From Gammaproteobacteria bacterium (GTDB lineage: Bacteria; Pseudomonadota; Gammaproteobacteria; Xanthomonadales; Wenzhouxiangellaceae): a stretch of 64,000 bases of DNA. Each line of letters begins with the position of its first letter. Position 1 is the first letter of the stretch. Made by a program: the position numbers and the translations under genes. The stretch covers positions 1 to 64,000 of the forward strand of contig PWYW01000018.1 of the NCBI GenBank assembly GCA_003567685.1, given 5' to 3'. Positions 25,717 to 26,900 of this stretch are shown here, piece by piece. The notes beneath the pieces are model-generated. The model was not told where the DNA came from and made no database searches. It saw only the letters and a program-made list of their open reading frames with translations.

Positions 25717-26313
25717 TCAGTCATGCCCCCAGGCCGGAGCCGGGGTATCGATGGTCTCATTGAGGTCGAACTCTACCCGCAGGTGGCGACCGGTACGGGT
25801 CAAGCCGTAGGCGAAATGACTGCCGGGCACGACTTCGATGTACCAGATATTCTCGATCGAACCGTCCAGCCCACCCGCGTGGAACAGCGCGCGGGAGTAA
25901 TCATCCACCGGAAAGGCCTGTCGCCACGAGCGGCCCGGATCCGTGGTGTGGCCACCGTACCAGGTCATGCTGTCTTCGCTGCCGTCTTCCAGGCGGTGGT
26001 CATGCTTCAGCCGCAGACCGTCGTCCAGACGAGTCAATACCCAGGTGCGCGAGCGGTCGTCACCGACAAAAAGGGGGATCTGGATGCGGTCGTCCTCGCA
26101 GTGCCTGACGTGCATGCTCAGGGTCTCGGGTAGCCAGCCGGCGTCCATGTCCTCGTCATAGCTGACCAGGCGGCCGGCATGAGCCTGTCCGCAAAGGCTG
26201 CTCAGCGCTTCCCAGAAGGCATCTTGTGGATCGGAACCGGCCAAGGCCGACGGTAGCGGCAGCACAAGCGCCAGGGGCAGACAGACAAACAGTGCGAGAC
26301 GGTAGCGATGCAT
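25717..26313 (-). CDS. exported hypothetical protein
   Basis: 198 aa with a clear signal peptide (LALFVCLPLALVLPLPSALAG). The mature part has two cysteines (SSLCGQAH, VRHCEDD) that may form one disulfide, many His/Asp residues and a beta-rich C-terminal half (SHFAYGLTRTGRHLRVEFDL). It is similar in style to conserved secreted proteins of unknown function in related gammaproteobacteria, but I cannot name a family. It is 51 bases upstream of the AbgT gene on the same strand. Confidence 0.6.
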   Translation of the reverse strand: MHRYRLALFVCLPLALVLPLPSALAGSDPQDAFWEALSSLCGQAHAGRLVSYDEDMDAGWLPETLSMHVRHCEDDRIQIPLFVGDDRSRTWVLTRLDDGLRLKHDHRLEDGSEDSMTWYGGHTTDPGRSWRQAFPVDDYSRALFHAGGLDGSIENIWYIEVVPGSHFAYGLTRTGRHLRVEFDLNETIDTPAPAWGHD

Positions 26314-26381: not shown

Positions 26382-26580
26382 TATTAACCCGGCAGGTATG
26401 TAGATCGCATTCAGCCACACTGCGGCCTGTCATTAGAGTGCAATCAGTTAGGGGCGCCAAGCAGGCCCCGACTCTGCGTTCTCGCCCTTGCCAATGGAAT
26501 CACCATTGCCTGCGAGCGACGCCTTGATTCGGGGCCTGCTTGACGCCCTGAATGTGATCTACATACCTGCCGGGTTAATA
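26382..26580. repeat. 199-bp palindromic element, MITE-like
   Basis: The outer arms, 26382-26414 and 26548-26580, are inverted repeats with 32 of 33 bases matching. Inner arms 26452-26474 and 26526-26548 match at 21 of 23, and a further hairpin (CAATGG/CCATTG, CTCGC/GCGAG) occupies the centre, so nearly the whole segment can fold into one long cruciform. The left side carries an extra 37-base insertion. If the terminal repeat begins TTAACCCGG, the element is flanked by TA on both sides, the target-site signature of IS630/Tc1-like elements and their MITEs. It contains no open reading frame of note and stops 5 bases from the stop of the DUF1820 gene. Confidence 0.75.
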
Positions 26581-26585
26581 GTGTC

Positions 26586-26900
26586 TCAGCGCTTCCGGCG
26601 GGGGCCGTCCAGGGGCAGCGGGGTGACCTTTTCGCCGGACTTGGAGTCGCGAATCACGCTGGTGCCCCGTTTCTTGACCTGTTCGATGCGAATGACCGAA
26701 TGCTGGGGCAAGTGCAGTACCTCCACATCGGCAAATTCTTCCCGCAGACGTTCTTCAGTGGGGTCAATGACCACGGCATCCCCGGAATCAAAGACCAGGC
26801 CGCTGGCCTCGATAAAGCCATACGACAGGTCACTGCCGGTGACCTTTTCGCAGAAAATCTCGTAAACCTTGCCGTGATTGAGGAAACAAACCTTGAACAT
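26586..26900 (-). CDS. DUF1820 family protein
   Basis: 104 aa soluble protein matching DUF1820: FKVCFLNHGKVYEIFCEKV at the start, GFIEASGLVF, VIDPTEERLREEF and LPQHSVIRIEQVKKRGTSVI. Function unknown; conserved in gammaproteobacteria. The stop of the rhomboid gene lies one base before its ATG, making it the last gene of the gspA-gspB-rhomboid transcript. The palindromic element begins immediately after its stop codon and may act as the transcript end. Confidence 0.85.
   Translation of the reverse strand: MFKVCFLNHGKVYEIFCEKVTGSDLSYGFIEASGLVFDSGDAVVIDPTEERLREEFADVEVLHLPQHSVIRIEQVKKRGTSVIRDSKSGEKVTPLPLDGPRRKR

Follow-up and report, generated by a model that had tools for sequence, protein, structure and literature searches.

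A palindromic, probable IS630-type MITE beside a DUF1820 gene in a soda-lake bacterium, with a folded interior conserved far outside its genus

The genome of the soda-lake bacterium considered here (G000) comprises 2.74 Mb in 107 contigs, and the window (the whole stretch of DNA that was analysed, 64 kb) is taken from one of these. Between a DUF1820 gene and the next gene downstream, which is read in the same direction, there is a palindrome which, including a TA on either side, occupies positions 26382-26580. The features of the locus, in the order of the forward strand, are as follows.

25717..26313, minus strand: next gene downstream of, and in the same direction as, the DUF1820 gene; no Pfam match
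26382..26383, no strand: left flanking TA (target duplication)
26384..26578, plus strand: copy of the probable MITE (195 bp, TA not counted), derived by deletion from an element of 280-281 bp
26384..26414, plus strand: left terminal inverted repeat, which begins TTAACCCGGCAGGTATGTAGATC and has the same first ten bases as IS630 elements
26413..26417, plus strand: junction of an 85-bp internal deletion, with AGCC at each deletion border in the full-length sibling
26417..26451, plus strand: remnant (right arm) of the first inner hairpin, and spacer
26452..26548, minus strand: second inner hairpin, intact
26487..26526, minus strand: conserved hairpin core CAAGGCG..GCAGGCAATGG..CCATTGGCAAG, from a pattern search of class genomes
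26548..26578, minus strand: right terminal inverted repeat, a 31-bp arm without the TA, as on the left
26579..26580, no strand: right flanking TA (target duplication)
26586..26900, minus strand: DUF1820 gene (PF08850, 111 bits), with its stop codon 5 bases from the element

A sequence-only reading of this DNA had described a 199-bp palindrome with TA flanks, two pairs of arms and a central hairpin, ending 5 bases from the DUF1820 stop codon, and all of this is borne out. The outer arms (26382-26414 and 26548-26580, 33 nt) are 97% complementary, the inner arms (26452-26474 and 26526-26548, 23 nt) are 91% complementary, and the central hairpin is present in the predicted single-strand DNA fold. 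The energy of that fold is -72.2 kcal/mol, whereas 200 dinucleotide shuffles average -28.98 (sd 3.5) and none of them was so low (z -12.35). The same peptide-like string is encoded on both arms, as the reading had pointed out, and this follows trivially from the inverted repeat; a coding role was rejected, as mismatches among 25 copies of the element (described below) have no clear codon phase.

There are three copies of the element in this genome: the window copy and two of about 284 bp, on contigs C58 and C67, which are 96 and 97% identical to the window copy over the shared part. The C58 sibling (284 bp) has the full plan, i.e., a long outer stem and two inner hairpins (z -18.75). The window copy corresponds to the full-length element minus 85 bp, and in the sibling the motif AGCC is present at both borders of the missing segment. 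The 85 bp were probably lost between these two AGCC repeats, which would have removed the left arm and the loop of the first inner hairpin. The same gap occurs in a 195-bp copy in genome G020, which is 87% identical to the window copy; either the deletion arose twice or the short form is itself mobile. The C58 copy (L014:1196-1479) and the C67 copy (L015:2121-2404) overlap the 3′ ends of open frames, to which the first bases of the element give a stop codon (TATTAA) or a short tail, INPAGM, followed by a stop.

Matches to the arm are present in 14 of 30 genomes of the genus, G000 included. Paired copies were defined by both ends, with at most 5 mismatches per end and 60-1300 bp apart, a count from which copies running off contigs or without one end are excluded; the loci are all from Wenzhouxiangella. 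Among the 32 distinct paired copies, 26 have TA on both sides, the other six (among them the C67 copy) have one base changed on one side, and 25 are 280-281 bp in length. A degenerate 33-base end pattern matched 41 stretches of named genomes, of which 39 belong to Wenzhouxiangella or to Wenzhouxiangellaceae MAGs and two to a single MAG named only gammaproteobacterium. Forms of other lengths occur in genome G024, where one element of 777 bp has the same ends and a longer interior (L072:1501-2277), and one of 80 bp (L043:5039-5118) consists of little beyond the two ends.

The site next to DUF1820 is empty in relatives. A DUF1820 match is present in 23 of the 30 genus genomes; leaving aside G000 and one truncated locus (L193), there are 21 relatives in which the 3′ end of DUF1820 is readable, and the element is absent downstream in all 21 (in one, L176, as judged by eye from its downstream 260 bases). 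The intergenic DNA of the relatives has diverged, so that the target TA can be placed approximately and not to the base. The search that the sequence-only reading had proposed, for the arm in this genome and its relatives, has therefore yielded dispersed copies, TA flanks and empty sites alike, and what that reading called a possible new MITE has the features by which bacterial MITEs are recognised: it is short, contains no gene, has terminal inverted repeats, is dispersed with target duplication, and is absent at the same site in relatives.

Placement relative to genes was counted with the element removed before gene calling, because its own stop codons hide an interrupted gene; for lack of flank, 3 of 32 copies in Wenzhouxiangella and 13 of 46 in a wider set were excluded. 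Counts with the element left in (0/32 inside genes and 16/32 near a 3′ end; in the wider set 2/33 and 10/33) are biased by those stop codons and were rejected. Gene calling by a codon model, for which the window served as training set, places one of 29 Wenzhouxiangella copies inside a gene, compared with 724 of 1136 TA sites nearby; of the 28 copies outside genes, 15 lie within 35 bp of a gene 3′ end, compared with 77 of 412 TA sites (p 0.00008). By a cruder method based on long open reading frames, which counts the window element itself as inside a gene, the corresponding figures are 5/29 vs 842/1136 inside genes and 11/24 vs 79/294 near a 3′ end (p 0.06). By the same method, avoidance of genes is weaker in the wider set (16/33 vs 1343/1797) and there is no 3′ preference (4/17 vs 133/454).

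Such placement, together with a predicted RNA fold of -128.4 kcal/mol (z -13.14) on the strand of the gene, would suit a hairpin with a fixed regulatory or terminator role where the DUF1820 transcript ends. As an account of the origin of the element this is refuted by its absence in all 21 relatives, and the 3′ preference which favours it under the codon model is weaker under the long-frame method and absent in the wider set. Nor did a terminator search and reading of the sequence find an intrinsic terminator at the element (a G+C stem with a T-run): no T-run follows the stem, and the suggestion of the sequence-only reading that the element could serve as transcript end was, as regards an intrinsic terminator, not upheld. 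We regard a fixed hairpin of this kind as very improbable.

Regarding the source of mobility, it had been proposed that an IS630/Tc1-type transposase acts in trans. In favour of this proposal, the end bases and the TA are common to IS630 elements of relatives; neither a transposase in the same genome nor a partner with identical 23-bp ends was found in the searches described below. The IS630 model NF033545 has matches in 6 of 11 genomes, two of them above the cut-off, and none (0 matches) in G000, the assembly of which, being in 107 contigs, could have lost repeats. As no IS630 transposase was found in G000, the window copy may be immobile at present. The closest counterparts are four complete IS630 elements (NF033545; DDE_3) in genome G023, of which three are 1108 bp long and the fourth is 1096 bp; like the MITE, each has TTAACCCGGC at both ends and is flanked by TA. 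The first ten end bases of the MITE are identical in all four; over 23 end bases, 20 (left) and 18 (right) agree with the 1108-bp elements, and 16 and 16 with the 1096-bp element. They differ from the MITE in carrying a DDE_3 transposase gene, and those of 1108 bp have no more than five 10-base words in common with the full MITE. Judged by end sequences, this is the relation expected between a MITE and its helper family. IS630 elements prefer a TA within CTAG.

Further members of the IS630 family were found in other relatives. An 1108-bp element with an in-frame stop, in another genus, keeps nine of the ten bases at one end, and an IS630-type remnant in genome G369 is followed by a TTAACCCGGC end. 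In G024, which is rich in copies of the MITE, an IS630 gene is present in two pieces with inverted repeats AATAAAGCCTCATGAG, unlike the ends of the MITE. The IS630-type genes of G328 were rejected as partners, as their ends are different (TTATTGAGCCTTGC), and those of G018 and G186 were rejected because the one nearby end has only TTAACC in common. The G328 genes belong to five near-identical IS630-like elements of about 1.11 kb (L253, L257, L259, L261, L263), which have the transposase in two adjacent open frames and the ends just given. The search for an autonomous partner used the family model and two transposase proteins, and 43 genomes of the family were searched with one transposase; among the matches whose surroundings were read, none was a transposase-bearing element with the identical 23-bp end of the MITE.

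Thus, the palindrome is, with high probability, a non-autonomous transposable element (a MITE) of the IS630/Tc1-mariner kind, because it has dispersed copies, TA on both sides, an empty site in relatives, and ends in common with IS630-family elements. An IS630-type transposase that recognises the TTAACCCGG ends would have inserted it, in trans, at a TA, and an insertion just past the stop codon of a gene presumably does little harm. An intergenic palindrome with several copies could also be of the REP/BIME type, moved by a RAYT (HUH) transposase. REPs are much shorter and have a characteristic head, whereas long terminal inverted repeats, TA flanks and IS630-type ends are found here, and we give this alternative hardly any weight.

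What goes beyond the sequence-only reading is that the interior of this MITE is conserved far outside the genus. Within the genus (18 copies), both sides have changed, with pairing kept, in 23 of 102 pairs. A covariance model (R1), built from 21 right halves of genus copies, matches 54 of 369 class genomes (G000 included), in 44 of 272 genera, and its best match outside the family has an E of 5e-23. Outside the genus there are 31 distinct paired copies, 26 of them from 40 stretches and the rest from other loci; TTAACCCGG-like ends were required by the search and TA was not. Of these foreign copies, 18 are 280-283 bp in length and 23 have TA on both sides. In an alignment of seven Wenzhouxiangella copies with 18 from nine further genera (25 copies, ten genera), 96.7% of cells are paired; two-sided change with pairing kept is seen at 65 of 99 pairs, compared with 39.5 in shuffles (0 of 500 as high) and 19-22 in slid controls. 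Such changes occur in the terminal stem as well as in the two inner hairpins, in the main stems of which 17 of 22 and 17 of 20 pairs, respectively, have paired changes.

A second model (R2), built from 30 sequences, has the element as its sole match in the 64-kb window, and matches 56 of 398 phylum genomes. Twenty-five of these are outside the class, 23 of them in one family; some R2 matches span the hairpin only and may be other long hairpins, and the claim for a shared core rests on an exact pattern (below). The family in question is f217 (e.g., G691, G650), in which the elements that were read have other ends. A reading in which the element is restricted to its own family, the only one in which the exact end pattern is found (8 of 200 order genomes), was dropped, since the covariance model matches across the class; searches by sequence alone therefore understate the family of elements. 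Rfam 15 gave no match, and in a separate search the one hit scored 24.4 bits, against a threshold of 60.4.

The inner hairpin also occurs with other ends. The pattern CAAGGCG..GCAGGCAANGG..CCNTTGNCAAG, which was written after viewing matches from partly the same genomes and is judged by its reversed control (0 matches), is present in 22 of 369 genomes, in 19 of 272 genera. Around this core there are 46 palindromes of at least 150 bp; the ends of 12 are TTAACCC, with TA in every case, and those of the remaining 34 differ, e.g., CTAGTGTCCTGTC or AGAGCCTGTT. A symmetric TA is present near the edge in 20 of these 34, some of them by chance, as nine edge positions were searched. In G000 itself, at least five places have core palindromes with other ends (eight candidates were scored). 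Relatives of the other-end palindromes are found on plasmids of Pseudomonas aeruginosa and Azotobacter chroococcum (76.7-79.7% identity) and of Comamonas odontotermitis (75.2%), with no gene beneath them in the gene table of the collection, which is incomplete; the one of P. aeruginosa lies between two genes and carries the core. A plasmid search for the TTAACCC end class gave no match, and neither did a search of phage and viral collections for the element. Copies in G024 (L048, L051, L056 and L072; C1 near 2584047, 466428 and 1203052-1203830) lie within a repeat, GTGGGCCATGCGGTTA..GGTAACGCTCAG, similar to the arms of the second end class (L325, G000), i.e., one MITE inserted in another.

The window element is a member of a much older lineage, in which elements of about 280 bp combine an outer stem with two inner hairpins. 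In the latter, paired changes preserve the fold, and the core that they carry is also present in palindromes with other ends. The folded interior may be useful to the element, or tolerated for its fold, for example as a site for a host factor.

What keeps the fold can be approached via half-changes, i.e., G-T and A-C. Among the 25 copies these are balanced overall (30 vs 24 kinds, p 0.50); the first inner hairpin has 15 kinds of G-T and 6 of A-C (p 0.08). Within the genus alone, the numbers of G-T and A-C cells are 10 vs 2 in the terminal stem, 7 vs 4 in the first hairpin and 2 vs 10 in the second. Given the overall balance and the disagreement between helices, no single RNA strand stands out. 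Regarding conservation of letters, mean entropy over all columns is 0.76 for unpaired and 0.64 for paired positions, the higher unpaired value coming from the spacer. There, the commonest letter has a mean share of 0.59, as against 0.78 (unpaired) and 0.81 (paired) within the hairpins.

The inner hairpins could be a structured RNA encoded by the element (a mobile non-coding RNA) and selected as RNA. The paired changes in both main stems would be expected of such an RNA, as would unpaired hairpin letters almost as conserved as the paired ones beside a spacer which is not, and the excess of G-T over A-C in the first inner hairpin points the same way. Selection on one RNA strand should, however, favour G-U, whereas the half-changes of the whole element are balanced and the helices within the genus pull in opposite directions; no promoter-like site was found at the element by a promoter search, nor any match in Rfam. 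Taking both sides together, we consider a selected RNA unlikely.

Alternatively, the paired changes could be a product of mutation, in which template switching between the arms of an imperfect palindrome re-matches them without selection. The strand symmetry of the half-changes agrees with this, as do the preponderance of matched Watson-Crick changes (388 cells, vs 81 for G-T plus A-C and 51 for other mismatches) and the like behaviour of the terminal arms. Repair of arms alone leaves unexplained the length of 280-283 bp in 18 of the 31 foreign copies and the occurrence of one core with different ends; furthermore, unpaired hairpin letters are kept while the spacer drifts, so that copying from arm to arm is probably not the whole story. 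Mutation without selection is, in our view, a somewhat unlikely explanation. The fold may be kept either because the folded DNA (or both strands) matters, or because arm-to-arm copying restores the palindrome.

Perhaps, and we offer this tentatively, several IS630-type MITE families across Pseudomonadota, with unrelated ends, have one ancient hairpin module in common, its fold being kept more than its letters. A conserved factor would recognise this module as a folded nucleic acid, either DNA (cruciform or single-stranded) or RNA of either strand, and would thereby aid persistence of the elements or make their insertions harmless. MITEs are usually regarded as two ends with filler between them. 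In the present case, it is the filler whose structure is conserved across many genera, and the ends that vary; this suggests a function for the interior, and opens to test the question of why bacterial genomes tolerate so many palindromic repeats. Annotators gain a motif and a model for repeats that are at present unannotated, some of them on plasmids of Pseudomonas and Azotobacter.

Searches of the open literature turned up no description of these ends or of this core, the accessible text of PMC3189936 and PMC8542531 included; ISfinder and most subscription papers were outside this search. Among the matches listed for the end or core letters, no title concerns such repeats, and in the accessible part of a paper on a haloalkaliphile which contains the end letters, these are cloning primers. 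The nearest known systems are themselves MITEs or MITE-like, and the following comparisons are with the parts of the sources that were available. ERIC, MITEEc1 and MITEPlu5 [PMC6267812] resemble the present element as IS630-type MITEs of gammaproteobacteria with a TA target, CCC near the end and a very strong fold; compared by description only, MITEPlu5 differs in being 123 bp, with no two-hairpin core reported in the part seen. RUP of the pneumococcus [PMC2229807] is likewise a MITE with a TA target, for which an IS630 transposase has been proposed as the mover, but it is 107 bp, belongs to Streptococcus pneumoniae, and has no cross-genus covariation reported in that part of the source. QMITE1 and QMITE2 of Coxiella burnetii [PMC5896051] are palindromic MITEs, several of which overlap gene 3′ ends and some of which are transcribed; they differ in having direct repeats of 2-3 or 7-11 nt whose sequence varies, and BLASTn searches by their authors, according to the text available, found no relatives of QMITE1 in other genomes. 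The intergenic repeats of Pseudomonas fluorescens [PMC2718517] are MITE-like and have a bias in placement towards tail-repeat-tail positions and, going by their description only, the second end class may include one of them.
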